Shown one piece after another: positions 47,201-63,900 of a DNA stretch of 64,000 bases. The notes beneath the pieces were generated by a model. That model was not told where the DNA came from, searched no databases, and was given only the letters and a program-made list of their open reading frames with translations. The first letter of the stretch is position 1; each line of letters starts with the position of its first letter. The DNA lies in NCBI GenBank assembly GCA_905147135.1, contig LR990056.1, positions 72,001 through 136,000 on the forward strand, given 5' to 3'. The translations under genes and the position numbers were made by a program. This DNA is from Blastobasis lacticolella. Its lineage: Eukaryota; Arthropoda; Insecta; Lepidoptera; Blastobasidae.

Positions 47201-50200
47201 GAGACAAAACGTCAAATAAAGAAGAAAAGGAAGTCTTTCATGGACTTCATCATCATCATAATCATCATATTAGCCAGAAAACGTCCACTGCTGTCCATAG
47301 GCCATTTAGGTCCATTTAGTCCATTTTTTTAATTAATTAAATAAATAAATAAATAGGCGTCCCCCAGAGATCTCCACAAAGGCCGGTCCTGTGCCTTGTG
47401 CCCACCTTGTGGGAGGCCTACCCACGCTGCGTCTTCCGGTACGTGGCCGCCACTCGAGAACTTTACTGTCCCATCGGCCATCTGTTCTTCGAGCTATGTG
47501 CCCTAACCTTGGTTCGCTTACGGATCTCCTCATTTCTGATTCGATCGCGCAAAGAAACTTCGAGCCTAGCTCTTTCCATTGTCCTTTGTCATGACATTTT
47601 TTTTTGTCATGGACTTAGGTACTACCCAAGAAAGTCCATGGCGTCTGTACACTCGAAGCTATCGGCTTCGAAGAATTCGGCTACTCGAAGAATTCGGCTG
47701 TCAACTTATCGAGAAGCAAGGTAGACTTATCGAGCTTTGATAATATTTATTGACTTTTTTTGAAATTCTTATAACATGGCAAAAGCATATTTGGCGTATG
47801 ATTTGTTACTCATCGAACATCGACGCGAAATGGTGAGGTGAACAGGAAGAGTTTCGAACTTGAAAGTTGGGACAAATTTTGAAAGTTATTAACGAACTTT
47901 ACTAGTGTATCAATTGTTGATTAAGAATTTATTTCGTAAGATCTATGCATTACTTAATGTCAATAATTTAAGCTTTTTTAATACTGAACTAAAATAGTGA
48001 ACAAAATAGAGTTTGTATGTCTCTAGGTACATTTATTCTTTACTTTCTATAAACTGGCGGTTTTATTAACATTGTAGTCCAACATGAACGTTATTTAGCT
48101 CTTGATGGATTCAAATAAATTACAGAGAAGAGTTTCAACATTAATTACTTAATACTATATTGATAGAAGCAGGAAAAATATTGTGAAGAAATATTGTAGG
48201 CTAATAATTTCAGTTTAAAACCACATACAGCCGATTATTATTGAATATATTTATCTGGTTTTCCTTTTTTAACATTATCCTAGTTAGTAACATTTTACAT
48301 GAACCAGTTTTAAATCAATCTTTATGCAGGACGTGAGTGTTTCTTTGTTCCCTATTTCGAAGACAATGCGCAAGAGGTTACATGCTTTCTGCGCCTGTTG
48401 CAATCGAGGGATGTAAGTACAAATTTTCTATTTCAAACCTTAAGCTTTTCTGTTAGATTATAAAACTGGTCTTTGTTCTAGAGTTCCACATCGACTAGAA
48501 AAATCCAAAACAAAATCGCTTCCAGATTTGCGTAAAGATCCAGAGAAGAAACAAGATCTAATAAGGCGAGATAGCATTTAAAGTCGATATTTATTAGATT
48601 CAATATTGTAAAAAGTTATTAAAACGATGTTATTCTAAAAAATAGTTTTAATTATAGGTCTAATTACAATTAAATACAATCTATTAAAGTACAAACTTAA
48701 TATTACAGATTTAGAGACACGGTAGTGTCTTGCGCCAAGTAGACGTTTAACATATGTTACAAATTTAATTTACTAAGTCAAAGTTTGTCATTTTTCGACG
48801 ATAATACTTGACAATTTTCACTATAAATTATAGTTTGACTCAGTATGACTCACTGTTGTCAACTATTATGAGACTACTGAGAGTTTGCCTTTGGTGGGGC
48901 ATGGGAATCATAGGTTGATTGAGGTATCGGAAAGGGAACACTTTCAGTAGTCCGACAATAAAGCTTCACAAGCTGTCATCAGATAAGCCATTAGATATAA
49001 AATTGACGTAAGCTGCGTCATTGATCCTTAGCAGTTGCATCATCTTGAAATCTCTTGCCTTGAATGCTATTCTGTAAGGAGTTTCGTAATTAAAGTTTAT
49101 TGCTCCTTTCTGGACACTAGCTTGCCTGCAAAGCCACTCAGCAAGTTGGTAATTTTTAGTTTTTGCGGCGATATGCAGCAAAGTATTCCCTGTTATAAGC
49201 TCTCTTGCGTTCATATCTTCGCCATTTTCCACGAGGGATTTTATTTTCTTTATAGCATTATCCTGATCTTGAATAGCAACAATATGAATGTATTTTCTTC
49301 CGAAATGATCATAAGTATCAGATTCAATCAACCTCGTACTTTCTTCATCTCTGATGTTACTTCCCATCGCAATGCAGATTGTTACTGATCTCGAAAGTGC
49401 GATCCTGAAATAGAATAAAACTAAATTACGCAATATGTAACATCTGTGCCAACTCATGATGCGCGCGCATGAACACGTTTTTATTTATACAATGTAGGAA
49501 ATTTTAGGCCTTCTGTGTGATACTGAGGTCTAGTGTCAAACTTAATGGATGTTATTACATCATCCTCGGGATCAAAAGACTTGCACTTATTATATAAACA
49601 ATATAACAATGATAATATGATTGAAAACATTTCCGAGCATGTGTGCGATGAAACTTGGCACACATTTTCTAGCTTACCACGTGTTTACGATTCATTCAAG
49701 CCCTTTACTATGCCAAGGTTACTACGCGTGACATAACACGTGTGTCACAGGCCAACGGCTTCAAAAGTGTTTATCAAGTTTTCACTAATTAGTTGGTGTA
49801 GATAACAAAAAAAGTCCGTAACTGATCTATCTTAACGTGTAATGAACCAACGACCTACAGTTGTTTGCTCAAGACGATTGACGTCAATGTTGATCAGAGT
49901 TTACGTGCGTAGTAGGCAGGTGAATGCACTGGAGTTCTTGGTTGGTAACTGAAGGTCAGTGATGGCTATAAACTATCGATTTTATTGATGTGTATTTTGG
50001 ATTTGGGCCAAAGATATATTCGTATCAATTTGAATTTTAGTGGATTTATATTTTGAATGTATGACACCTCCCCTTTAGTTTTCACTAGACTTCATAAAAA
50101 TCTAACTATTGTATTTGTCCTTGTTACAAGACTTTTTCCAAATTTGCTGGATATGGTATATACAAAATACATATAGTTTAAAAGTTTGTATATATACGCG

Positions 50201-53200
50201 AATTTGAAATAACTTTTGAACGTCTAAAAATATTTTATTTATGTAAAATGCATGCTACTTCCAGAAGAAAAAAACTTTTGTTATCTACTCCCTGTTGGTA
50301 ATTTTGTGACCTACTATGCGAACTGTGATAAGTGTACTGTATAATCAACACTCATAAAATTGCCACAGATTTGCGCTGTCATTTCATAAGACATATTCTT
50401 TCGGGCACTAGCAGTCGCTTTTTTTTAAATCAAAATGCCTATAGTGTAAGTTAAATAGTGTAAGTTAAATTATTTAAAAACTAATCAGTGGGTTTAGTAT
50501 CAGAAAATAAACTCCATGTATTGTTACAGAGTGAAAGTAGAACCTGAACAGCAAAAGAAGAATAGACTCTTCTGTTCAAGCTCGGAGTATCCTATGGCTT
50601 GTCTTCCTTTGATCGTTATTACGATCATGTTTTTTTTCATAATAGGCTGTGGTTATCTTAGTTTTCATATCGCGCAGTATTTTTGTCATGTATTTAAAGC
50701 ATTGTTATCATATCTGTTAATTTCGTAAAAGATTATTTGTAAATATTAAAATATAAGCATTCCCAAATATTTGTTTCTTTTTCTATTATTAGAAACGTAA
50801 ACACCACGTGGGTGTTTCGTTTGCAAACAATTTCAGCGAACTAATCATAAAAGTAAACACTTAGACATGCGTGAATACGCCCACGAGGCTACTGGAAGCT
50901 CAAAATGTCGTCAGTTTGTCTGATACAATTGTGCTACCTGTTCGTTTTTTCTGCTGGGCTTCAAATGGAGGCATATTATGCTGAAATTGTTTACGTGGAA
51001 TTGAAACGTAACATCTATATTCCCAACGAATGGCCAATTCAAGGAATAGAACGACTTGTGCTCTGTTTAGTAGAGAAGATTATCAGTGATCCTGGACCCT
51101 CGTACGTTCTGCAGGTCAAGAACATACCTGCTAAGCTGATACGACATCAAACGGAAAGTGGCTGTGTTAATGTGTTCCAAAAAATACCTCATAGGTAAGT
51201 GTCACTATAATTTTAATTTGCTAAAGAAGAAATATATATTTAATATAGAATTTCATTTCAGAAAAATGAAAAATACTCACCTGTATAACGTCGTATTTCC
51301 GATAGACGATCATGAAATCAGGGTGGAAATTTTCAGCGAAGAATATCAAGAACCCTGGACAAATTATTGTGCAATCGCTTTATCGAGAGAAGAGGCAATG
51401 TCTTATCACACAATACCTCTGTGCTTTAAGTAAGCATTTGTTTGATCAATTTGGCGTCATATGCTACTGATTGTTTTTTCAGGTGTAATACAGTAAATAT
51501 TTTGATTTCAGACAAAAGCTTTGCAGTACTGTCAATAACCCTGTTCCACCTCACTGCATGTTACGCAGAATTAAGCGGTCAGTACCCTAGTTATTGCAAA
51601 ATATTTACTTTAAAAACGCATCACTTATGCTTATACTTTTTTTTCAGGATTTTCAAACGGACACCAAAACGCAGGATGTTCCAACCGTAGGAAAAACGAA
51701 ATGGTAAGAAATTTGAACTTCACTATTTTTTAAAGATTTTTTTCATAGGGATTTCTTCTCATCAGAATACAAAATAAAATTATTTGTTGCAGGTTATCAT
51801 CCAGCGACACCTATACTTACAATAGTGATATCTGTTTTGTTTACATATTAACAATTTAAAGTTAACTATGTAGAGATAAGTTAATTAACCTATTTTGTAA
51901 TACGTAATCGTCAGTATAAGGTCAAGAAATAAAACAAATCATAGCATTGTTTACTTTTTTATTGAAAAGTCAATACAACAGGTGCTAAATACCTCATTCA
52001 TCAATTTCTTACCTCCAGACAAACATTACTCTGAACACCTGTAGCTTCAAGACCAAAGTTCGTTGATCGATAGCCTAAACTAGTTGTATAACCTCTAAAC
52101 TTAAGGTTTGTTTATATAAAGTTCATTTTCGCAGTATTTGCTATCACAAAATTAAACGCTAAGGTTTTTAGAGATACTTTAAAGTCAAACTTATCAAAGT
52201 TACAAACATATACCACAAATAGGACAAGTTTAAATTCCTGAATCCATTTCTTCTATGTCTTTTAAAGGTCTTCTGAAATTCTTTGATTCATAGAAATCTA
52301 TTTCGAACACACAATATTTGAATGGGTTCGGCTCAGTACTGGGATCATTAATCTTCTTGAACCACGCGCGATATTTTATCATCATAAATTCTGCAGTAAC
52401 ACCGTTCAAGGACCCTCTAAGACCTTGCATTGATCTGTGAGTAGTTTGCCAAATTGTCATCATTTCGGTCAATTCTTTCTGTAGGGTCATCAGTGATATT
52501 GTCTTCCACTCTTTTGGAATTATCAACTCCAAGGACATGATGAAAAGTGAAGCACTGGGTCAGAACACATGTAAACACTAATTACAAATGACAAGTCTTA
52601 CAAAACTTAAATTTATAATTTATATTTAAAAATACGTCCGTAGACGACAGCTGCGCGATTTATTGTGAATAACTTGGACAACGCAATAATATGATAATTT
52701 GAAGACGGATGAGGTATCGGTCTTTGTTTCGCGAAATATAAATATTTTTTAATTGCTATGTGATAACACTTGATGAAACTTGTTAGCTAATCAGTAATGA
52801 AGTTGAGGTTACTACCAATTAAATGTTTTTTTTGTAATTATCATATTTGAAGCCAATTCAATTAATTTGCTTCATTCATTAAAACTCCGCCCAAAGGTTA
52901 AAGGTTCATACACATCGAACTGATTGACCAGAGAAAGTCATGATAATAAATATTTATAGTTATTAGCGATACAAGAGAGGAATATATTATTATATATAAA
53001 TATATATATCCCCTTAATGATATCTAATAGAATAAAATATTTACAAAAAAAAAAAACAGTATCTTTTTGCAGAAGAGATAGAAACTCCTGTGAGTTTACA
53101 AGAATTTGATGTCAATTGCTTCAGTCCTGCCATCTTTATTTGTGGGGAGGAGTTAGTTTCTGGTCAGTGTGTGACTTTGAGGTTATACTTTTAGGATTCT

Positions 53201-56200
53201 AAAAAAATTGGCTAAGTATTGTTAGGATATTTGATATTGTTACAAAAGAAATTTTTTAAAATATTTTCTTTTATTAGATATGATTAAGGGGATATATATA
53301 TTTATATATAATAATATATATCTTCTCTATGTCATTACTAATAATAGATAATATTTTTATAAACAATTATTTAAATGACATTAAAAAAATTTGCTTTAAT
53401 ACCTACCTACAAATTATTAGTCGTCAAATCGTTGATAGCTGGACCTAATACAAGGATTAGATTGTTCCAAAAATATTAATCACTCACTCAATTAATTTCC
53501 GTGGGGCAGAGCTAGAACCAATGAGATCGCGCGAATAATCTGTGAGCTAATATTAGGCGAGGAGTCTTTTTATGTTTGAACTGTACAGAACATGGGTTTT
53601 AATTATCTCCTGTAGAGCTGAATGTGACCCATTGAGGGCTTTACTACTTATATGAAGTATTAATGAGCTGTCTACTGATTTGTGAAATATTTCCATTAAC
53701 ACTTTTTTTTAATAAATTAAGTGCTTTGCACACGGAGAACATCTACTGCGCTCGTGAAACATATCTCGCGCACGTGGAACCGTTCACGCGCAGATGAAGC
53801 TCAAATATTAAGAAACCAAGAATTTTCCTAACTATTATTGAATTATAAAATAAAACGACCCATAAACAAAAATAATTTTATTTAAAAATAGAAAAAAATG
53901 AGTATCCAGCGAATTTATAATTAATTTAGATCACGTCCTCACAGCACATGGTTTCTGTCCAAAACTAATGGAATTCTTTGGAATACTTAATTCAAATACT
54001 ACTAAAATCTAAACTTAGACATGTAACTTTGATTTTTTTAAAAAGTAACCGAATCAATACTTTATCGCGAGATCAAGGACTAATTTTAAAAAAATGGGTC
54101 TTTTGCATTCTCTTGATAAACTTCCGTTGGAACATTGTTACCATTCGAAGAGGGAATTTTCCGAAGGACACCACCGTCGCTTGTCCTTATCCAAAGGGCT
54201 TCATAACTTTGCTGAAAAAAATATTTTTAATGTTAAATTTTATCCTAATACTGTTCCGAGACAAAATTTGAAAATAATCCAAAATTTTGACTCGGAATCG
54301 CTTTGATATAAATAAATTTACCTTAAGGTTATGAAGATTGTAAATCATGCAACTTAGATCCTTATTTTAACGTACCCCGTCAGTTGGTCTTGCTTGTACT
54401 GCCATCAAAATCACCGCGCAGACCATAAAGTACAGTAATAGCTTAACGCAGCCCATTTTTTAATTGATATCTGCAAATCAAAAATTACTTTTGTAACACC
54501 TCTAATGAGAAAAAATCAAATTATTCTGAACTCAGAAACTTATTAAAAATAAAAACTCACGTGAATATGAGATCGATCTGAGCACTATAACATGAGATAA
54601 AAAACTAAAAGTCTAGACAAAATTGTCGGCCATTATATACCCAGCGAGCGCCAGAATTTTTTTTGAAGCACAAAAAAATGATTGGGGTGACATTGTTATC
54701 TCTTATCCCAAAATTTTATTACTTTTCCATTTTTAAAATTCTATTCTTGCTTAATATTTCAATTAATTCATTAATTTCCTTCTTAATTCATTTTTTGAAA
54801 CCGGTATTTCGTTAATGTGTTCGACTACTACGCTGCTAATCCTTCGTTACTCGCGTAATGAGTGCTGTGTCAAACTGATATTTTGATATTTTAAGATATT
54901 TCCTAAAAATTTTTTGTTCAAAACTTAAATACAAAGTGCAGCATCTTTTAAATTATTTTATTTTGAAATCTATTGTATTTTTGATGTCTAAGAAACTGAT
55001 GGATTTCAATAAATTTATCAAACTATTTGTAAACAATATAAATAATTTTAACTACGTCTCAATAATATTTTAGTTGGAACTTATAAAACATTTGTATCTA
55101 TATTTTATCCCGAAAAAATGTGCTTCAATTTTTGGACACCCTAGTGCGTTAGTAGACGGAATTAATTTATAGAGCTCAGTGCTCTGTACTACTATTAATA
55201 AAAAACCGGCTGACCGAACTATTAAACGTTGCTATGTGGGAATAAAATGATTTTAGCTCGATACCATGCGGTTTTACTGGCGTCAAAATTAGTTTGACCT
55301 ATATTTAATGTAATAAGGGTCTTGGTAAAGGTCAATTTTTACTTCCGACAGCTTAAGATATTTAAAAAAAAATTATTATACAGGAAACTTATTAATAAGA
55401 TTCAAAATTACTAAGGAATTGTACGAAAATTGATTTTTGAGGTTAAACACGTCCCACATGTTCGAGCGTGATGTTTTACAACAGATTCCTAATGGACAGT
55501 ATCAAATGCCAATTTATTTCTTTTAGACAACTTCTTGGCAGTATTAGGACTGGCAGAAAGCCATAGAAAATTATTCTTGTATTCTTTTCTTCTACAGTTT
55601 ACAATTTAAAATATGTAAGACGTTTAATTTTGGAATTTACTTTTGTTTAATTGGGAAACAATTTAATGCGCATATACGAAAAATTTGATCATATCTTCAT
55701 TTAACAATTTTTTTCATTAGTAAGTTTTGAATGTAAATCATGAAGTCAATAAATAAATAAATAGTTCGAAAAATATTGCGCTTTATACGTGTCAAAGTAA
55801 ATAAAAAAATACACATGGTTACATATCACAATTATTACAATTGTTTGAATAACTTAAATATTAATTTAAATCTAGTTTTTTCACAACGTGTCAGTCTAAC
55901 CTTAAAATTACAAATGAAACAGCTGATGTAATAATCAATCAGCGACATCAGGTAAAGTATACTTTACCTATTAGTTTATTAATGTTTTACAATTTTTTAT
56001 CAGTAAAGGTTGCGCCCAAAAATTTCACTCAGTGTAACAAGTACAGAAAATCTTATTATGTTACGTAATATCAGATAAGCTGAAATTTTTGAGTTCAATA
56101 ATTGTATAAAATGTAAAACAAACATCAAAATTTCAGTATAATGAACTTATTTCAAATTCGGTAAATTGTGATTAAAGTCATCCTTCAACCAAAAAATGCA

Positions 56201-59200
56201 GACAAAATACAATGACATATAAAATTGGACAACCAGTTGCATATATTGTAGATGACGATTCCTTTTTTGTTGGTTTTAAATATAAACGCGAAACAGAAGC
56301 CCAGTATGTTTTCTTCCGTTCTTCAAAATTAGTGCTACTCCAATTTGTAGCTAGGGTTATGTATTCCTCAAAATTTTCAATGGTTTCATTAATTTCACAT
56401 CTTCCATGTCCAAATTTAAAGCACGTTGCTGGCCTCGTGGGATAACCACTACAACGAGCTGGGCAGCAAGGGAGTTTTGAATTCAAACACTAAAAAAATA
56501 ACGATGTTCATTACTTAAATTCGCTAAGGGTAAATTGCACACCCCAAAAGATTAAATTAACTCACAGTTTCTCCCAATGGCAGGCACGTTTTTCGGATTC
56601 TCAGAGGCTTGATCAGATACCTTGCGGCTATAGGCTGGTTAATTAATGTCACAATTATTATATAACTAATCATCATGTTGATTTACTGTTTGATCTAAAA
56701 CCGGTAAAATAAAATCCGATGAAAGACGTCCTACGGCTGGAAAATTCGAAGAGATATAATTTCTGATTATGGCTTGTTATGGATCTTAATATGGGTTGCT
56801 GAATACATTTATTTTTGTCTACCTGAATGGACAAAGATGTAGGCGGATTGTCGGTGAAGGGTCTAAGTAACGAAGAAAATTCTAACCTAATCATTATTAG
56901 CGATTTCTGTTCTATCGAATTGATATTCTCGGAAGAAATATACCTGTTTTAACACATCAAGAATATGTATACTGCCTACAAAAAATCAAAGCTTTTTTTG
57001 TAGGCAGTATAATATTATTAAAGTGCTTTTGAATGCTTGAAACCCTTAACAATCGCTACCTTTCTAAAATTAAGCCAAACTTATATTCTATTTGACGTCA
57101 TAGCATCTGATTATAGGAAAACGTCGACTCTATTCTGAGAAATCCATGCAAAATTAATTTGGCTGATACTATCTCTCAAGAGATAGTATAGAAGGGTATA
57201 ATATAGTAAGGGTAATATTATCTCCCAAGAAATAGTACTAAAAATAATTTTAAGGATTAACAATTAAAATCTCCAATTTCTGTTGAAAACTTATGCATGA
57301 AAATTATATTTATCACTTGACATCTAATAAGGTCCGCGTTTCATAAAATATTATATTTGTTTTATCATTTATTACTAACATATATGTGATACGATATAGC
57401 TTGCACTATTTCATTAGTTATAAGAGCACTTAAAAACCAAAGTGGACTGCCATAACTGTTTTTAGAAAAAACGTTACGTTGCGTTGTTAAGTATTTGATA
57501 ATTAAGGATTCACGATTATATTTTATTTCTCATGATGCATTACTAACTAGTATTATAATATTGATATTATTTGCACTATTCCATTAGTTATAAAAGCACC
57601 TAGAAGCTAGAATTGGCAGCTGTAACTGTTCTAAGAACGCTCTTCTAAGGTTGTTAATTTGTTAAAGTATTTGAGATTTTAAAATTTAATATTTGTACCA
57701 AAGGTATTCTTTCCATGACAATTTATTGTTATATTAGTTTTTAAAAATGATACTTAATTATGTTTAGAATTTTACTGAGTGAATGTTTAAAAATTTTGAA
57801 TTGCCGACCCACTGTAATTTTTGTTAAAGCTTAATCCGGAGACATCGCAGTGTCTCGCGCCAAGTACACGTCCAACATATGTTTTATTACAATTTTCGTT
57901 TGTTGTTTATCTTATTAATATAATGCATTTATTACTCTTGTAAATATTGTTTTATTTTTAATTTGTAATTTAATTTTTATGTGACAAAAGTTCGCAGTGA
58001 TTTGTAAATTTCGACATGAAAAACTTTCCTTGTGACGGCAAATCGCTAGGATCCAGCGAGATTACCAAAATCCACTTCTTTTAGAGGAAGACGAGTTTTT
58101 GAGGTTGTATAGAGTATCTAAGGATTTTTTTGCTAAACTCTTGCATGAATTAAGGCAATCTCTTTAAAGACGACGACCTTACGGACTTTCCACGGAATCC
58201 CAAATATTGACCGCACTCCGTTTTTATGCGTCTGAATGCAACCAACTCCCAATTTGTCTACAATGGGGTTGCAGCATGAGATTTGTTTCATTTTCAATTT
58301 AAATAATAAATTTAATTTGTTTATTTGTCGGTAATTCTTCTTTATTTTAATTCAATCTCCTTTCTAAAAATAGTGTAACCCCGAGAAAAACCGTGCGTAA
58401 CCGGGGCCGGTCGATATGCAATTGTAAAATTAGCGCTATCTGCTGATAAGTAGCGTACTACGTAATAAAACACACTCAAAGTAGTAATTCTACTTGCCGA
58501 AAGGTGGAGCTTGCAGTATAAAACTAACTCAAAACACGCCTACAAAGTCACGGCGGACCAGCTAGTTAAGAAATAAAACCGACTTAGAAATAAGCTTTTT
58601 AATCAATACAGTAAGTACGAGTTTATAGGAGTATGAAGAAAGGGTAATGAAGTCTATGATTAAGGGTATATATTTATATAGTATACCTCTACCCGTTTCA
58701 CCGTCCCGACGACCAGAGCGGAGCGCCAGGGGCCGATCTCGTGCTGCAGCCCGTCCAGCGTCTCGTTCTGCCGGTCGCACTGCACCGACACATGCCCCGA
58801 GCCGGGCAGCCACGACACTCGTACTAGAACACGGTACTATCAATATTCTGTGCCAGAACGACATACAAGGCGCTTTAATTATTTTTTCATTATAATAATA
58901 ATGTTGACATAGACATAGACATAGACATAATATTTATTTGGCAATTTCTACAATATAAGTTAACAAAATATTTCTTACTAACATAAATTAGGTTAAATAT
59001 TGTAGTGTCATGCCAAACTAGGGCTCAGCTCAGCATATGCTGTAGGTAGCGAGACCACAGCGCTGATTTTCAGCTGACCCCTACAGTTAGTGCGTGAATT
59101 ACTCGCCAAGTGGTCAGATAGGTAACGTAGTGCTGTACATTTTGCGGTGTGTTTATAACTAATAATATAAATATGTATAAAACCATATGGAGCTATTATT

Positions 59201-62200
59201 GTGTAATTTTAGTGTATAACTGATAATTAATTTAGATATGTTGGAACAACTCTGCAGCCTATAGGGAGTGATTTTTGGTGTTCATAAAGGTATAGTTTTA
59301 TGTTCGATTTAAAAGATGTAATCGTTTTCGATTCCTTGATGGGAGGCGGCAGGTTGTTCCAACATTTGGTTGCCGCATATCTAAAACTGCCACGAAAGCC
59401 AGCCGTCCTGGGAGCAGATATCCTGAGAGGATAGCTAACCCTCCGCGCATTTCGCGAGCCGGCTCCACTACGCCAACTTAGTTTCCTGTACAGGTACTCT
59501 GGGATACCAGTATTTATTATACCATACAGTAAAGAGGCCAGATGCAGCTCTTGACGTAGGGACATTTTTAATATTTTTGCATCATTGATGAAAGGTGTTA
59601 CATGCGTACGGGGGGAACCTTAAAACAAAAACGAGCACAGGCATTTTGAACCCTCTGAATCAACCTCGCGGACCGAGCTAGCAGTCTAGGACCATACACT
59701 ACATCGGCGTAACCTAAAATCGATAATACCAAGGAATCGCATAATTTAATACGCAGATCCTCAGCAAGAAAGTCTCTTATCTGATACAATAACTTAATTT
59801 TATAAAAACCTTTTCGCACCATGCCGACAATATGATTTTCAAAATGAAGGGTTGAGTCCATTAACACACCTAAGTTACGAGCTTCAGTCACTCGCTCCTC
59901 TTGAGCCCCCAGCAATGTCAAAACGGGCATAGTGCGAGAGATTTCCACGACCTGACGGTCAGATCCAAGAATCATGTACTTTGTTTTATTTGGGTTAAGT
60001 ACAAGAGTATTTCACTCGGCCCACACACCAAAACTTGTCAAATCCTCGCTTAATTTCTCGATAGCTAACCTCGCTTCCCCTGGGTTAAAAGAGATGTATA
60101 GTTGCGTGTCATCGGCATAAATATGATAACTGCAGTATTTAATAACCTTAGGCATATCGGCGGTATATAGTATGAATAATAGAGGGCCAAGTATCGAGCC
60201 CTGAGGCACCCCGCGCGATAATGCCATTGGCCGGGACAAAATGGGATTGCCGTCTTCACCGTCTATTTTTACAATTTGTTATGAATGTGCAGGTTTCATC
60301 ACGGTGTTTTGCTTCTTTTTAATTTTTTTTTGTACTTTACGATCTCTTTAATTTAACTAATGTAATATGTAATCTAAAGTGTGTGAATTTTATTCAAATA
60401 TGTTCTAAACTACTGAAAAATAAGTATTAAATAACCTTTATCAACAGAAAAAAGACCTTTTTTATTTTTATGTACTACAGCAGACAAACAGGCGTGGGGG
60501 CCACCTGATGGTAAGTGGTCATCGACGTCTACGGACATCAGCAACACCTGGGGTGCCACCAATGCGTTGTCCGCCTCTAAGGAGACCCCTAATATACCTC
60601 CTGAAGGATCCCATGTCATAGGTGTATCGCATTTAAGGTTGTGTCATTGAAGGATCGTCGTTGGATTGCTGATATGACATTGTTGTTCAAGATCGCCAAT
60701 AATCTAGTAAACTGTTCACAATTGCTGGAACAGTTAATCTTCAATGATCCGCGGATAAACAGTCGTATCAGGGACAGCAGAACCTTTGCCATTAAGTTTT
60801 ACAGGACTAATCTGGGATTTTATTCCCCAATTCCCCGTATTTGTCGAGAGTATAATATTTTGTGTGGGGTGGCGGATGTAGACCTTTTCCACAACAAAAG
60901 CACAACCTTTAAAACCATCTTATTCAGGCGTATTTCTGATGGGCTCTGATCTTGTAGGCGTAAATTTAAGTACCTACCTATTTAAAAATGTATTGTTCAC
61001 TTTCTTAAATCGTTTATTTACTTTGTTAATCAGTCACATAATTTGTTAACTTTGGTTTTTATTTCTTTGCATTTGAACAATGTTAAAACTTTAAAAAATA
61101 TAATTTCCTTTTTGCACTCTGTACAGTAACATGATTTCCAGTTGTGATAACAATTAATTGTAAACGCATGCAGTGTTTACCTATCATTGGTTTTATACTT
61201 AAAACTAGATAAATGCTGTTACTTTACATACTATAAGATTTTATGTAGTGTATAAACTGTTGGTGAACCTAATAAATAAAATAAAATAAAATAAAATAAT
61301 AGTTCAAAGGAAACACTGCGGCTGGGAGCTCATTCCACATCCGAATCGTACGAGCAAAAAACGTTCTATCGAATCTTCGCGTGGACACCACTAGAGGGTT
61401 CACGTAGTGTGAATGAGTACCCAGCCCACGGCTTGTGGTGCGATGGCAGAATTGTGCTGTGGGCACCAGACCAAACAATTCCTCAGAACACTCCTTATTG
61501 TACAGCCGGAAGTCCATTCGGTCCGCCAGTGGTTGTTTGTCGAGATGTATGAGTATGAGGTCGTCGACAATTCGTACGGCGCCCCTCTGGAGCGGTACCG
61601 CCGATCTCTGTCTGATGTGCCATCCCTCTGGAATGACGTCAGAAAATGCATTTCGGATAGGCCCTATCATAGCCTCCTTCATACGCTCATGTATCTATCT
61701 GTGAAATGGACTGAAATGTACGATTTTGAACGACCACAAAGTAGAGAAGAGAAGATTTAATGGCAAATTTTAGCTGGCCCATATTAACCTTGCACCGATT
61801 TAATTAATTACAATAATTTGTACATACATTATACATACCATGGTATACTTTTCAAACTTTTTTGTTCTTAGCAGAAAAATAACCATAGTCGGTTTGGCGG
61901 TGCAGGATAAGGTTGCCGCCAATGTTGAGTAGGTGGAAAAGGGTAATTACCCACCTGGACGGGTGTTGTGGACCAGGGGACCAAGGGTCCGACAGTTGAT
62001 CGTCGGAAGTTGCATATATTCCGTGGAAGTTGGCACATTTCTCTAGCGCGATGCAGGACGGTTAGCGCCATCTATGTGCGGATGCTTGCCAACCTTGTGT
62101 TCGTGTACTCGTAATGTGAGTATCGTTGAGTTTCCCTAGTGGAGCGATAGATGTCGCTACAGTACTCCCCCCGGAGACTGGAGGTCGATACCGAAGCGAG

Positions 62201-63900
62201 AAACGCTGACGCTGTCGTATGAAGCGTAATCAGTTTAGCGATGCGGTGAGTAATGGCGTAGCTCTGGCGTGAAGTTGCGCTGTGAGCTGTGCTGAAGCGA
62301 TGCTGTTCCCAAGTCTGCAGTGAGTCGAGACTGGGTGGGGACAGTGAGATGCCGCAGGTGATCGACTAGGAAGCACGCGTTGTGCCGACTATGGTCAAGG
62401 CTGTGACTGCTGTGTGCGAGAGTCAGGTAGGGAAGACGTAAGGATCACGTCGGGGTCACCACTTTGGCGGTGCAGGATAAGGTTGCCGCCAATGTTGAGA
62501 AGGTGGAAAAGGGTAATTACCCACCTGGCCGGGTGTTGTGACCAAGGGACCAAGGGTCCGACAGTTGATCGTCGGAAGTTGCATATATGCCGTGGAAGTT
62601 GGCACATTTCTCTAGCGCGATGCAGGACGGTTAGCGCCATCTATGTGCGGATGCTTGCCAACCTTGTGTTCGTGTACTCGTAATGTGAGTATCGTTGAGT
62701 TTCCCTAGTGGAGCGATAGATGTCACTACAGTCGGCCATGGACTACATAGAGGAAAGAACGTCCGAAAACAACAATATAACGATGCAGATTATATTTGAT
62801 TTACTAAAAATGACAAAGTACGAAAATAATTTAAAAATATTCTATTATAATGTACAATTCTAGCATCCCAACTCCTCATTCATTTCGTTCATTTTGCCGG
62901 CGGTACGAATTCTGTGACGTCATTTCAGAGGGCTGGTATCATGCGGTATAGTAGTATAGGATAGGCGGTACCATCCCTGTACGGAGTCCAAAGGATACCT
63001 TACTTAACCTAATTAATAATAAAGTTAAAAAATTTGCCCCTAAATTGCGGGAAAATGCCGCCGCGTTACCCCGCTGGAAAGCGAGGCTTAAACGCTGACC
63101 CAAGTAGAGGCCAGTTTCTGGTCATTACTAATATCGACCAGGCGCTTGGCTAGTTCCTGATATAAGGAATGTGGTACCCACGGCCCAAGGGTTTCCACTC
63201 TAAATGGTGCAAATATGTAATCGCCACCTAGATAAGCATATTTGCGCCGTTTGGCACTTTTAGCAGAGGCGGCACCCGCCCCTGCTCGATACGCGGTGGC
63301 TGGAAGATGGGACGGCGTGAGGGTGTCGATGCACGTAGCATCCCAGACCAGGGGCCGTCCCAGCTTTCAAGGAGTTATTGTCATTCCGTCGGATCTTTTA
63401 CCATCATCGCGGGCTAAACCGTAGGGTTCCAGCATCGCGGATGCGCCAGCGGAGGTAAAGGCCCAACGGATGACATCGTTAATGTACTTGTGAAGTGGAA
63501 TGCGTCCGCCGCTCCTGTTGCACGACAAACCATGGTGGCCGAGCCGGTCAACAGGACGGACACATAGGCAGTCATGCGGAGCATTGCAGGGAGCGCCAAG
63601 ACCAGGGCCGTGAAAATTCTGAAAGTGGCACGGTCGAGCAAAATGCCGAAGTTTTTTTAAACTGGAGCCAGAGGCCCGACTTCTACTCACCAGCAGCCAG
63701 AAGGCGAGAAAAGCGCTTCAGAGTTGTTTCGTAATCTAATCTTATCGTTTTGTAATCTATAATTTTGTAATTATAATATATAAGAACTTTATGGGAGAAA
63801 TAAATAAATTTAAATATAAATAATGGTTGCAAGAGAGGTGGCACCCACCCGCGGCGGCCACCGACCCCGCCAGCAGCAGCAGCGCGCGCCACACCGACAT
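34438..63900 (-). CDS. Toll: Toll receptor, 12 coding exons, about 950 aa
   Basis: Type I membrane receptor of the Toll/NF-kappaB pathway. It binds a cysteine-knot ligand outside and recruits a MyD88-type adaptor through its TIR domain. Coding exons (minus): 63900-63849, 58823-58693, 47022-46812, 46336-46035, 45764-45531, 45342-45158, 44691-44531, 41196-41054, 40508-40297, 39904-39637, 35536-35378, 35232-34438. Every junction is GT-AG and reading phase is kept through all twelve. Order: signal peptide (1-17), LRR ectodomain, a first cysteine cluster, LRRNT ([10 protein letters not shown]), one or two LRRs, LRRCT ([10 protein letters not shown]), membrane helix about 714-738, TIR about 770-905, Ala/Pro-rich tail. 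Two cysteine clusters mark the multiple-cysteine-cluster class of Drosophila Toll, though it is shorter than the fly protein. It is at least 29 kb long because of intronic transposons and the virus-like island in intron 2. Which Toll paralogue it is cannot be settled here. Confidence 0.9.
35378..35536 (-). CDS. Toll: Toll exon 11: last LRR and C-terminal cap
   Basis: 53 codons: [10 protein letters not shown] (LRR) and [14 protein letters not shown] (LRRCT). The donor is the weak GTAACC after ...NRLM. Confidence 0.85.
35567..38010 (-). pseudogene. RTE-like LINE in Toll intron 11, frameshifted
   Basis: Read on minus: 38009-37539 carries the endonuclease end and linker ([17 protein letters not shown]). 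37480-36860 is broken RT. 36859-36172 carries motifs around [13 protein letters not shown] (the ADD box decayed to A-Y-G), [12 protein letters not shown] and YLGQTLQ. 35800-35567 carries [13 protein letters not shown] and [10 protein letters not shown] then stop. Several frameshifts and a foreign minisatellite block at 35815-36190 make it inactive. Confidence 0.85.
35815..36190. repeat. (GGTAGGGTAGGG)-type minisatellite with a shared flanking module
   Basis: Irregular GGTAGGGTAGGGGTAAGATAGT units run to about 36085. They are followed by a unique module ending GGGCCGGGTCGCTCTTTTCC, whose reverse complement recurs at 42190-42280. It interrupts the LINE, so it is a separate insertion. Confidence 0.7.
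38020..39600. other. Toll intron 11, unassigned part
   Basis: 38.3-38.75 kb may be decayed LINE endonuclease sequence (weak). The rest shows no recognisable feature. Confidence 0.4.
39637..39904 (-). CDS. Toll: Toll exon 10: LRRNT cysteine cluster
   Basis: Carries [17 protein letters not shown], with a further C in TTAAHC, then the first LRR after the cap ([16 protein letters not shown]). Starts with one base completing an Arg codon from exon 9. Confidence 0.88.
40297..40508 (-). CDS. Toll: Toll exon 9: first C-terminal cysteine cluster
   Basis: Starts [10 protein letters not shown] in phase 0. Carries NPLQL then spaced cysteines ([15 protein letters not shown]) of an LRRCT. Ends with two bases of the next codon before GTGCGG. 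Confidence 0.85.
41054..41196 (-). CDS. Toll: Toll exon 8: LRRs
   Basis: [20 protein letters not shown] and [17 protein letters not shown] are LRR consensus lines. The donor is GTAGAG after GAG. Confidence 0.85.
41264..41480 (+). pseudogene. LINE C-terminal scrap in Toll intron 8
   Basis: The plus frame GRRGRTEKR, stop, [19 protein letters not shown], then WTRR matches the 21.8 kb fragment. Ends in a GATGATGATG run. Confidence 0.7.
41857..42195 (+). pseudogene. LINE AP-endonuclease domain, truncated
   Basis: Reads [23 protein letters not shown] and [12 protein letters not shown], the first blocks of the Jockey/CR1 endonuclease. It breaks off after ...TVGCSNKR, where the repeat module at 42190 begins. 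Confidence 0.85.
42190..42305 (+). repeat. module shared with 36.1-36.2 kb
   Basis: CCACTTCAACCATATTTGAG, then GACCCGGCCCCCACGCCACC, then a short CTACCCCTACCC run. It matches the reverse complement of 36105-36190, and in both places it cuts a LINE. Confidence 0.65.
42870..43362 (+). pseudogene. LINE C-terminal domain with C/H motif
   Basis: Blocks [20 protein letters not shown] and [12 protein letters not shown], ending with [20 protein letters not shown]. The same protein family is on minus at 63690-63060. Frameshifts are present around 43000-43180, so it is inactive. Confidence 0.75.
43508..43638. repeat. foldback element with 48-base arms
   Basis: The left arm 43508-43555 and right arm 43591-43638 are inverted copies with about two mismatches, separated by 35 bases. 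No clear target-site duplication. It sits at the edge of a SINE. Confidence 0.75.
43640..44050 (+). repeat. SINE copy with internal insertion
   Basis: 43650-43775 and 43905-44050 match the 13555 family (GTGAGGGAAAACATCGTGATG, GATCCAATCTGGTCAGG). About 130 unrelated bases lie between them. Confidence 0.55.
44531..44691 (-). CDS. Toll: Toll exon 7: LRRs
   Basis: [15 protein letters not shown] and [16 protein letters not shown] are LRR lines. Begins with one base completing Pro from exon 6, ends one base into Glu. Confidence 0.87.
45158..45342 (-). CDS. Toll: Toll exon 6: LRRs
   Basis: [19 protein letters not shown] and [15 protein letters not shown] follow the LRR spacing. Phase 0 at the start, two bases over at the donor GTGAGG. 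Confidence 0.87.
45531..45764 (-). CDS. Toll: Toll exon 5: LRRs
   Basis: 78 codons: [20 protein letters not shown] and [10 protein letters not shown]. Phase 0 at both ends; donor GTAGGT. Confidence 0.85.
46035..46336 (-). CDS. Toll: Toll exon 4: N-terminal ectodomain and LRR
   Basis: Begins with two bases completing Gly. Contains [29 protein letters not shown] and [14 protein letters not shown]. Donor GTGAGT. Confidence 0.85.
46812..47022 (-). CDS. Toll: Toll exon 3: N-terminal ectodomain
   Basis: [15 protein letters not shown], then [18 protein letters not shown] (LRR-like). It joins in phase 0 to exon 2 across the 11.7-kb intron that holds the virus-like island. Confidence 0.85.
47333..47600 (-). 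pseudogene. LINE C-terminal tail in Toll intron 2
   Basis: The minus frame [20 protein letters not shown] then [11 protein letters not shown] matches the end of RTE-like LINEs (compare 35.7 kb). Tail (ATAA)n at 47340. It is the last clear moth repeat before the island. Confidence 0.7.
47776..48581 (+). CDS. unrecognised small basic protein, three exons
   Basis: Model: 47776-47832 (19 codons, donor GTGAGG), 48330-48412 (acceptor TTTATGCAG, donor GTAAGT), 48482-48581 (acceptor TTGTTCTAG). Phase is kept and the product is 79 aa. No signal peptide. The middle exon has a cysteine cluster FCACCNRG after basic KTMRKRLH. The C-terminal third is rich in Lys, Arg, Asp and Pro and ends RRDSI. The strength of all four splice sites and the open frame across them argue for a real gene. 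I do not recognise the family. The 497-base first intron is longer than others in the island. A broken end of a longer wasp or virus gene is an alternative. Confidence 0.5.
48714..48760 (+). repeat. 45-bp motif, left copy
   Basis: GAGACACGGTAGTGTCTTGC, then GCCAAGTAGACG..AACATATGTT. It contains the inverted repeat GACAC/GTGTC. The same motif recurs in the same orientation at 57839-57884. Confidence 0.7.
48966..49367 (-). CDS. vankyrin (IkappaB-like ankyrin protein), bracovirus ank family
   Basis: 133 aa from the ATG at 49367-49365. The frame continues upstream to 49457, but the TATA box at 49482-49489 puts the start site near that upstream ATG, which favours the downstream one. About three ankyrin repeats: YIHIVAIQD...VENGEDMN, then [20 protein letters not shown], then [19 protein letters not shown]. 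The GNT-LHIA and AEWLC blocks are the hallmark of polydnavirus vankyrins, which resemble IkappaB but lack its N-terminal phosphodegron and PEST tail. Known vankyrins bind Rel proteins and block NF-kappaB signalling in the parasitised caterpillar. No stop or frameshift. It is transcribed in the same direction as Toll, in which it is nested. Confidence 0.85.
   Translation of the reverse strand: MGSNIRDEESTRLIESDTYDHFGRKYIHIVAIQDQDNAIKKIKSLVENGEDMNARELITGNTLLHIAAKTKNYQLAEWLCRQASVQKGAINFNYETPYRIAFKARDFKMMQLLRINDAAYVNFISNGLSDDSL
49482..49489 (-). promoter_or_regulatory. TATA box of the vankyrin gene
   Basis: TATAAATA on the minus strand, 115 bases upstream of the chosen start codon. Confidence 0.6.
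49533..50430. other. intergenic region of the island
   Basis: Opposed short frames at 49533-49736 (+) and 49663-49481 (-) overlap each other. The minus one has a hydrophobic stretch but no convincing promoter or splice sites. Neither is called as a gene. Confidence 0.4.
50435..50728 (+). CDS. small membrane protein with an 11-base first exon
   Basis: Proposed: 50435-50445 (ATG CCT ATA GT), intron 50446-50529 with GTAAGT and TTGTTACAG, then 50530-50728; 69 aa. After a short polar start ([11 protein letters not shown]), a cysteine-containing strongly hydrophobic region ([19 protein letters not shown]) and a second hydrophobic stretch follow, so it is probably membrane-bound. The donor lies in a tandem copy: tagtgtaagttaaa occurs twice, giving two GTAAGT sites; only the first keeps the frame. 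No family recognised. An unspliced start within the intron (50516) is the alternative. Confidence 0.45.
50905..51825 (+). CDS. secreted protein, five exons, unrecognised
   Basis: Model: 50905-51194, 51262-51429, 51483-51577, 51648-51703, 51793-51825; introns of 53-89 bases, all GT-AG, phase kept, 213 aa. The first 18-20 residues ([18 protein letters not shown]) form a signal peptide. The mature chain has about seven scattered cysteines, acidic [16 protein letters not shown], and a second hydrophobic stretch ([17 protein letters not shown]) late in exon 3. Exon 3 could instead read through to a stop at 51690. AATAAA at 51928-51933 suits its 3' end. Organisation (secreted, several tiny introns) fits bracovirus virulence genes, but I cannot name a family. 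Confidence 0.55.
51928..51963. terminator. paired polyadenylation signals of convergent genes
   Basis: AATAAA on plus at 51928-51933 serves the gene ending at 51825. AATAAA on minus at 51963-51958 may serve the gene ending at 52230, 267 bases beyond its stop. Confidence 0.45.
52230..52538 (-). CDS. unrecognised 102-aa protein
   Basis: Single open frame, ATG at 52538-52536. TATAAAT-like sequence at 52611-52626 upstream on the same strand. No signal peptide or membrane helix; mostly helical, polar sequence ([17 protein letters not shown] near residue 18, then AWFKKINDP) with one cysteine ([11 protein letters not shown]) and an acidic end. Convergent with the gene at 50905. Family unknown; taken as a gene because of length, promoter-like spacing and island context. 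Confidence 0.5.
   Translation of the reverse strand: MSLELIIPKEWKTISLMTLQKELTEMMTIWQTTHRSMQGLRGSLNGVTAEFMMIKYRAWFKKINDPSTEPNPFKYCVFEIDFYESKNFRRPLKDIEEMDSGI
52955..53360. repeat. large inverted repeat
   Basis: The left arm about 52955-53046 and right arm about 53263-53360 are inverted copies (both contain the ATATATATCCCCTTAAT block next to a TATATAA run). A 215-base unique centre separates them. AT-rich arms could extrude a cruciform or be ends of a foldback element. Confidence 0.7.
54086..54456 (-). CDS. small secreted protein, 68 aa
   Basis: Coding exons 54456-54376 (27 codons) and 54211-54086 (41 codons and stop) join in phase 0 (donor GTACGT; acceptor TTTTTTTCAG). Upstream, TATATAA at 54639-54633, a GTGAGT donor after 54561 and a TTTGCAG acceptor before 54470 suggest a 5' UTR exon and intron. 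Residues 1-22 are a clear signal peptide ([10 protein letters not shown]...VQA), leaving a mature chain of about 45 residues without cysteines, beginning RPTDG. A complete promoter, UTR intron, signal peptide and stop make this a convincing gene. I know no match; frames on the plus strand here (53978-54306) are its shadows. Confidence 0.65.
54633..54639 (-). promoter_or_regulatory. TATA box of the 68-aa secreted protein gene
   Basis: TATATAA on minus inside GGGTATATAATGG, about 70 bases before the UTR donor. Confidence 0.55.
54650..56170. other. AT-rich non-coding part of the island
   Basis: No gene or splice-linked frame found. Homopolymer A/T runs dominate. Confidence 0.45.
56178..56676 (-). 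CDS. secreted cysteine-motif protein (cystine-knot-like), bracovirus CRP type
   Basis: Two exons: 56676-56566 (37 codons; tandem ATG at 56676 and 56673) and 56489-56178 (103 codons and stop); phase 0, donor GTGAGT, acceptor TTTTTTTAG; 140 aa. A signal peptide ([18 protein letters not shown]) precedes the cysteine motif. Six cysteines are spaced C-x6-C-x6-CC-x3-C-x9-C, the inhibitor-cystine-knot order of cysteine-motif proteins from polydnaviruses. The intron splits the motif between its first and second cysteine; introns within or next to the motif are typical of these genes. The C-terminal part is longer than the knot, with a hydrophobic end ([18 protein letters not shown]). Known relatives act on caterpillar haemocytes or translation; the target here is unknown. 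Intact. Confidence 0.7.
56968..57011. repeat. perfect hairpin, 18-bp arms
   Basis: TATACTGCCTACAAAAAA and its exact complement flank a 7-8-base loop, about 290 bases upstream of the cysteine-motif gene. Confidence 0.7.
57365..57700. repeat. two-copy degenerate tandem repeat, period about 167
   Basis: Shared words: TTGCACTAT-CATTAGTTATAA, AGCAC, AACTGTT, GTTAA--TATTTGA. No coding potential. Confidence 0.6.
57839..57884 (+). repeat. 45-bp motif, right copy
   Basis: GAGACATCGCAGTGTCTCGC, then GCCAAGTACACG..AACATATGTT; about 80 percent like 48714-48760 and in the same orientation. Confidence 0.7.
58070..58280 (+). pseudogene. Harbinger transposase fragment
   Basis: The frame reads [19 protein letters not shown], one stop, [19 protein letters not shown] and [10 protein letters not shown]. 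This matches the N-terminal part of HARBI1-like transposases (the Y-R-S-K and L--ALRFYA--Q-P blocks). No DDE catalytic part remains. It marks the right edge of the island or a scrap in the moth intron. Confidence 0.75.
58693..58823 (-). CDS. Toll: Toll exon 2
   Basis: Starts with two bases completing Val after the signal peptide; reads [18 protein letters not shown] and [14 protein letters not shown]. Donor GTAGAG. One cysteine of the N-terminal cap. Confidence 0.8.
58905..60270 (-). pseudogene. Jockey/CR1-type LINE, RT half, in Toll intron 1
   Basis: Minus: 60239-60012 has [18 protein letters not shown] and IYADDTQLY (catalytic box). 59975-59598 has the linker [14 protein letters not shown] and YADVVYGP. 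59565-59227 has [19 protein letters not shown] then stop. A stop codon splits the first two pieces and a frameshift the last. The 3' UTR ends at a (GACATA)n run near 58905. Confidence 0.88.
60470..60612 (-). repeat. dispersed SINE-like repeat
   Basis: Reverse of the 12560 and 24805 family (CACCTGATGGTAAGTGGTCA, CCTGGGGTGCCACCAATGCG). Confidence 0.55.
60630..61298 (+). pseudogene. LINE RT C-terminus with 3' UTR and (AAAAT)n tail
   Basis: [33 protein letters not shown] and LFRRISDGL then stop. The tail ends in a (taaaa)n run at 61268-61298. Confidence 0.75.
61300..61690 (-). pseudogene. LINE RT C-terminus, opposite orientation
   Basis: The minus frame includes [17 protein letters not shown] and [18 protein letters not shown], which is the end of an R1/Jockey-like ORF2. 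It meets the tail of the preceding LINE at the shared A/T-rich run. Confidence 0.75.
61893..62730 (-). mobile_element. complete non-autonomous LTR retrotransposon (TRIM-like)
   Basis: LTRs at 61893-62161 and 62463-62730 differ at roughly 7 of 269 positions. Read on the minus strand, the 5' LTR (TGTAG start) is followed one base on by a primer-binding site TGGTGACCCCGACGTGA (62461-62445). The internal region is only about 300 bases, and a polypurine tract CCGGGGGGAGTA lies just before the 3' LTR. A 5-bp duplication GTCGG flanks the whole (61888-61892, 62731-62735). No gag or pol, so it depended on a partner element. Confidence 0.85.
63060..63690 (-). pseudogene. LINE C-terminal domain with C/H motif
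   Basis: [37 protein letters not shown] and [11 protein letters not shown], then in a shifted frame [20 protein letters not shown]. Same family as 42870-43362. Frameshifted and partial, in Toll intron 1. Confidence 0.75.
63849..63900 (-). CDS. Toll: Toll exon 1: signal peptide
   Basis: ATG at 63900-63898; [17 protein letters not shown] (17 codons) plus one base, then GTGGGT. A basic-hydrophobic-small-residue signal peptide. The 100 bases upstream to the window end are 5' UTR or promoter; no TATA box is seen. Confidence 0.78.

Follow-up and report, generated by a model that had tools for sequence, protein, structure and literature searches.

Integration of bracovirus circles through the host integration motif (HIM) in parasitised hosts is known, as is the presence of polydnavirus fragments in moth genomes (PMC8549517, PMC8460044, PMC4574769). 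In parasitised caterpillars, opening occurs at a fixed site of the circle, which is then integrated in its entirety, with the arms of the motif at its ends (PMC8549517, PMC8460044). The HIM arms of Cotesia bracoviruses consist of 8 nucleotides (TAAATTTC/GAAATTTA) and 5 nucleotides, CTGGT/ACCAG (PMC8460044), and those of ichnoviruses of 11 and 6 nucleotides of another sequence (PMC7843510); the five ankyrin genes of the C. vestalis bracovirus are located on HIM circles (PMC8549517, PMC8460044). Here, we report the analysis of a 64,000-nucleotide stretch of the genome of the moth Blastobasis lacticolella (contig LR990056.1, positions 72,001 to 136,000; hereafter, the window), which contains an inserted element of 10,192 bp that recurs across the same genome. 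The explanation that we favor, on balance, is that a polydnavirus circle of bracovirus type, from a parasitoid wasp, entered the germline repeatedly, each time cut open at one fixed site and integrated at full length.

The likeness to HIM integration in parasitised caterpillars (PMC8549517, PMC8460044) lies in the fixed opening site, the whole circle, and the arms at the ends; unlike those somatic events, the insertions described here are in the germline, multi-copy, old to recent, and uniformly flanked by a 2-bp duplication. Bracovirus-derived insertions in Lepidoptera (Gasmi 2015, PMC4574769) are likewise wasp-virus DNA fixed in moth genomes, but the authors report finding no complete circles, whereas the present copies run end to end. 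Ichnovirus segments (PMC7379367) carry similar gene families, but the ichnovirus HIM motif is not at the ends here. Full-length copies with target duplications make the integration reaction readable from the genome, so that a single odd insertion becomes a dated series, which could date waves of wasp attack and be used to ask whether injected genes enter the germline repeatedly or spread by themselves. HIM-mediated germline transfer of polydnaviruses is said to have been described by Heisserer in 2023 for many Lepidoptera, and the present case may be part of that data set.

Limits, target duplications and copies of the element

A preliminary description of the window, made without database searches, had placed a compact gene block at 47700-58370. 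The block itself is real, with sharp borders and a low GC (guanine plus cytosine) content of approximately 0.30 (~0.23-0.41 in 400-bp steps, compared to 0.36-0.58 in the adjoining flanks), and its limits are corrected to 47841-58032 by the start of 13 other fetched copies and the stop of the 10 copies for which the right end was read. The statement that the block lacks moth repeats does not hold because the block itself is a dispersed repeat in this genome.

The genome was searched in full (577,033,349 bases in 45 contigs, on which the window is C17:72001-136000). A 201-base probe from the element matches 14 places with 95-100% identity. The left-end probe matches 28 places, 16 of them at 95-100% and 12 at 81-85% without the first 53 bases, and a right-end probe adds a single fragment, on C6. 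Besides the window copy, 13 copies of this first family were fetched, and two more, C8:3916231 and C8:9286249, were seen at the left end only. Three copies on C21 have identical flanks and accordingly represent one insertion that was duplicated afterwards, which brings the first family to 14 sites including the window. Because the same left-end variants are found in C8:9286249 and in C8b, these two possibly go back to one event; the first family thus comprises at least 13 independent insertions. Together with a second, related family, these sites replace the single segment in an immune gene of the preliminary description and support its claim of heritable integration in the moth.

With the exception of the C21 copies, the host flanks all differ, and the ends are uniform. 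AACAGG stands at the position of window 47841 in 11 of the 13 other copies (C1a has TACAGG, and the first bases of C8b are altered), and the right end coincides with 58032 in all 10 copies in which it was read. The same opening point therefore recurs in independent integrations, as expected of an HIM-integrated bracovirus circle.

At each of the eight sites with two standard ends, the element is flanked by a 2-bp target duplication (TG in the window, AC in C25, TG in C18, CC in C2, TA in C8c, AA in C11, TT in C21 and TT in C22); at 1/16 each, the chance expectation is ~2e-10. A ninth site, C1a, fits either as TG with the first base changed or as TGT. C8a, C1b and C8b are outside this count, their right ends being lost or beyond the fetched stretches (that of C1b is at C1:24888376). 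When the joined host flanks of nine sites were compared with the fetched DNA, two matched an uninterrupted relative. The empty relative of C25, in locus L034, reads through with a single AC (38/40 bases identical on the left and 26/40 on the right, where there is an indel), and that of C22, in the window itself, is identical at 31/40 bases on either side. The duplications and the filled and empty pair thus indicate clean joining with a 2-bp stagger, no target DNA being lost at the best pair, and this stagger points away from simple tyrosine recombination. In PMC8460044 and PMC8549517, the main text uses neither 'target site' nor 'TSD', and 'target site duplication' is not used in the polydnavirus circle-integration papers among the matches listed.

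The tree of the first family is star-like, with terminal branches of 0 to 2.0%, and later internal insertions and deletions are present in the older copies. The terminal branch of the window copy is 0.40%, in agreement with the recent arrival suggested by the preliminary description.

Two observations concern individual sites. Four of the 14 first-family sites are less than 300 kb from a contig end (C17:119841, C18:17854917, C11:20618981 and C8:21637463; p ~8e-4, assuming 31 chromosomes and that contig ends are chromosome ends). Window positions 47841-48868 are less diverged from the C21 copies than the rest of the element (99.2-99.4% identity to two of them and 98.9% to the third).

Constraint between families and decay within the moth

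The second family occupies 12 places and is colinear with the first at ~71% identity. Ends were fetched for 7 of these 12 loci, all of which have the same start point and different flanks; the second-family arm, ACAGTAAGAG...CGAAAGTTGG, resembles that of the first family, ACAGGAAGAG...TGAAAGTTGG, by eye, a likeness that is unscored. An 8-kb second-family stretch, L061, follows the window block colinearly, with piecewise identities of 70-87%, and contains open frames for an ankyrin protein of 129 amino acids and for the counterparts of the 102-amino-acid open reading frame (ORF) and of the exon at 50905 (Table 1).

For these three genes, the ratio of nonsynonymous to synonymous substitution rates (dN/dS) between the families, by the NG86 method, is 0.20, 0.14 and 0.25, with a pooled value of 0.19 (bootstrap 0.12-0.27) at a dS of 0.87; hence, the genes were under purifying selection during the divergence of the families. 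Codon changes private to one independent first-family copy behave differently: 92 missense, 6 stop and 27 synonymous changes (98 N : 27 S) yield, with an N:S site ratio of 3.9 carried over unchanged from an earlier codon computation, an omega of 0.93 (0.63-1.52), which differs from the between-family ratio (Fisher p 2e-6) and reveals no detectable constraint. Changes common to at least two copies (15 N to 7 S) are too few for judgement. Gene lesions are present at all six older sites (C21, C22, C8a, C8b, C8c and C1b), and two young sites are damaged as well: in C25, the 50905 exon is shortened by 63 bp, and in C1a, the ankyrin frame is interrupted. Most lesions are private to one site, and no stop is common to independent sites. 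Selection on the moth copies, considered in the preliminary description, is not supported because private changes look neutral and the older copies carry lesions. This pattern is expected for DNA whose function is maintained elsewhere and which evolves neutrally once it is in the moth, be it delivered or copied; constraint at the source set against neutrality in the moth argues that the copies have not been adopted by their host.

Origin of the copies

Under repeated germline integration, the constrained source would be a virus kept in wasps and injected repeatedly over a long time. Injected circles would reach moth germ cells, an integrase would cut the circle at the end arms and, with a 2-bp stagger, join it to target DNA at random, and the moth copies would not be kept by selection. 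Only the motif at the ends suggests the assignment to bracoviruses: the 8-mer GAAATTTA, described in HIMs of Cotesia bracoviruses (PMC8460044, PMC7843510), occurs exactly, 20 nucleotides inside the right end, and the left arm holds GAAAGTTG, with 2 mismatches to the HIM 8-mer. The search for the motif at both ends, proposed in the preliminary description, thus gave a partial match. The arms match imperfectly as reverse-complementary repeats, and not significantly, since an equally good score was reached by 7.5% of 2000 pairs drawn at random from the block.

The gene content is polydnavirus-like, as the preliminary description had proposed when it named two hallmark genes. The ankyrin-repeat protein is recognized by Pfam, and the match of the cysteine-motif protein to PF08008, a polydnavirus family, is under the cut-off (Table 1). 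Among 5.8 billion proteins, a single relative of the ankyrin protein emerged, which is unnamed and matches 86% of the query at 73% identity, and no homologue of the 102-amino-acid ORF or the 50905 exon was found there. Foldseek returned nothing reaching E 0.001, with weak structure models (mean predicted local distance difference test scores, pLDDT, of 50.5 and 63.3).

A number of results weigh against repeated integration of a bracovirus circle. The 5-nucleotide border, sought as CTGGT/ACCAG (Cotesia) or CTAGT/ACTAG (Microplitis), is at neither end (the ends are AACAGG and CCTTG). No named polydnavirus relative emerged from the protein or IMG/VR searches, the ankyrin protein has no relative in IMG/VR, and there was no significant match in BFVD, where the best for ankyrin is the unnamed F4ZGY8 (43% over 70 columns, E 0.15, weak model). 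In its own genome, the ankyrin protein matches 150 scored places among 384 candidates, which are many for accidental transfer alone; these comprise both families, followed by sets at 31-58% identity, many of them open, with equal scores on different contigs, and the weaker ones may include ordinary ankyrin proteins. Descent inside the moth could be indicated by the 63-bp deletion of C25 and a 67-bp deletion of C1b, which start at 50919 and 50920 in the 50905 exon, and by a 31-bp non-coding deletion common to C8a and C1b; C18 and C1a do not differ at any of the sites compared, as would suit recent transposition as well. Non-coding counts relative to C2, with C8b as the outgroup, are nearly equal for C8c (54:47), C8a (50:49) and C21a (37:39) and unequal for C1b (72:40) and C22 (62:39), and these relative rates do not discriminate between repeated delivery and transposition within the moth. 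Since the rates of three of the five old copies are nearly equal, the idea that a slower source lineage would prove an outside source was dropped. Finally, AGCT, a mark of bracovirus circle junctions (PMC4169385, PMC1919376), gives a divided picture: it adjoins the right copy of a 45-bp direct repeat within the element in all 11 copies that cover the place (three more do not), but the left copy lacks it, as do all 12 other occurrences of the motif, and two repeats are present where such a junction would have one.

The most serious competitor, although on the unlikely side in our judgement, is that one or a few circles entered the germline and then spread through the moth genome as a transposon, through a host transposase or integrase that recognises the arms. 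Uniform ends with 2-bp duplications, the star-like tree, in which two identical copies come from different contigs, several families at high copy number, and the near-coincident and common deletions all fit this scenario, and integrases of retroviral origin from P. xylostella act on Cotesia circles (PMC8460044). Against this scenario, no transposase domain is present in the frames scanned, which cover part of the element, and, once the C25/C1b deletions are set aside, independent sites have no clearly common gene lesion in the models checked; the latter argument is weak because only one or two shared lesions are expected on the backbone, by a rough hand estimate. Furthermore, the constraint between the families would still have to come from a functional source, which neutral moth copies are not. 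Cutting across this competitor and repeated integration is a broader proposition, for which we see a reasonable but minority chance: wasp-virus circles have turned into, or act like, transposon-type elements of moths, with several families multi-copy in one genome, by injection or by mobilisation. Part of that proposition is circle integration as a transposition-type reaction, with fixed ends, 2-bp staggered joining to any target, and no target loss.

A variant of repeated integration with an ichnovirus circle in place of the bracovirus one is improbable. Vankyrin and cys-motif genes are conserved ichnovirus families (PMC7379367), but the ichnovirus HIM repeats CCGTACGCTCT/AGAGCGTACGG are not at the ends, the best match of the 11-mer (PMC7843510) in the block being internal, at 51100, with 2 mismatches, and one end holds the bracovirus 8-mer. 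A bracovirus is accordingly more likely, although not proven. We consider it similarly doubtful that the element has nothing to do with polydnaviruses and is a moth mobile element or integrating virus of an unknown kind that carries ankyrin and cysteine-motif genes. Such an origin is compatible with the lack of a named viral relative in the searches made, the missing 5-bp border, and the 45-bp motif in three further repeat families; it is at odds with the injected-effector-like gene set, the HIM 8-mer at the right end, the similarity to PF08008, a polydnavirus family, and the absence of replication and integration domains from the frames scanned. An assembly chimera from a parasitised specimen is highly improbable given at least 13 independent sites, the differing flanks of copies spread over nine of the 45 contigs, a target duplication at each site for which both standard ends were read, and older copies with private decay and later insertions.

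The 45-bp repeat was also considered, and rejected, as the end of the block, the copies showing the true ends 0.15-0.87 kb further out. Without the rest of the element, the motif occurs at 12 other genome places, L049-L060, on C26, C11, C2, C8, C25, C27, C13, C20, C16 and C17. These fall into three repeat families that are unrelated outside the core; the 45-bp repeat is therefore a motif common to different repeat families, and it cannot be called a bracovirus junction. Judging from coordinates only, ankyrin matches at 35-36% identity are ~7.8 kb from the motif at four places and 5-7 kb at three. A scan of IMG/VR with part of the motif gave 4 matches, approximately the number estimated by chance, and was not used.

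Features of the element and its surroundings

All seven gene models proposed in the preliminary description can be drawn, and their frames are compact and open; the splice sites are a reading of the sequence (Table 1). No integrase, transposase or replication domain was detected by Pfam in the element frames scanned, which are part of the six-frame translation. The exons at 50905 and 52538 were once taken for paralogues, which was dropped as the match covers merely 5 residues.

Table 1. Features of the inserted element, in window coordinates
Feature	Position	Strand	Basis
Whole element; ends common to other copies	47841..58032	+	Copy comparison
Left TG of 2-bp target duplication	47839..47840	+	Copy comparison
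Left end arm, AACAGG...GAAAGTTG; by eye, 7/7 fetched second-family loci start with a similar arm	47841..47869	+	Copy comparison
Candidate exons, small basic protein, splice predicted; 100% identical in 8/13 other copies	48327..48581	+	Sequence, copy comparison
Left copy, 45-bp direct repeat	48714..48758	+	Repeat comparison
Ankyrin-repeat (vankyrin-like) single ORF without introns, 133 amino acids	48966..49367	-	Pfam Ank_2 7e-14
ORF with hydrophobic stretch, 70 amino acids	50516..50728	+	ORF list
Exon of putative secreted protein; homologous second-family frame 52/73 amino acids identical	50905..51195	+	ORF list, comparison
Following exon of the 50905 model, splice inferred	51266..51430	+	Sequence
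ORF, 102 amino acids; second-family homologue 72/102 amino acids identical	52230..52538	-	Comparison
Inverted repeat pair, also matching the second family	52943..53360		Repeat and colinearity comparison
Candidate second exon of small secreted protein (with 54379..54456), splice inferred	54089..54208	-	Sequence, copy comparison
Candidate signal-peptide exon, small secreted protein	54379..54456	-	Sequence
Cysteine-motif (cysteine-rich) exon	56178..56489 (56486-56178 in the Pfam match)	-	Pfam PF08008 Viral_cys_rich E 2.4e-4, 21.5 bits, under 25-bit cut-off
Candidate first exon of cysteine-motif protein, splice inferred	56570..56676	-	Sequence
Right copy, 45-bp direct repeat; AGCT just upstream in 11/11 covering copies	57839..57883	+	Repeat and copy comparison
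Right end arm, TAAATTTC...CCTTG, holds bracovirus HIM 8-mer	58005..58032	+	Copy comparison, PMC8460044
Right TG of 2-bp target duplication	58033..58034	+	Copy comparison

The element had been described as nested in an intron of a Toll receptor gene, which is not borne out. Pfam identifies Toll-like domains at 34.4-45.4 kb of the window, namely, TIR at 35241-34441 (minus strand, 1e-15) and the leucine-rich repeat (LRR) domain LRR_8 at 45366-45157 (minus strand, 6.4e-7), and no Toll or LRR domain on the same strand at 58-64 kb; the block may therefore lie 5' of the Toll gene. The host DNA immediately on either side, 47770-47838 and 58035-58300, may represent the beginning of a Harbinger-type transposase frame that the insertion interrupted; the right part is without a Pfam match.

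Among the ankyrin-like matches in the genome, ~44 of the 150, by an eye count, are on contig C8, which holds 3.8% of the bases and several of the older first-family copies too; a non-recombining chromosome, perhaps the W, might explain this excess. To the right of the element, the minus strand of the 58-64 kb region contains a reverse-transcriptase match, and 61893-62163 and 62463-62732 are direct repeats of ~271 bp that are 98% identical.

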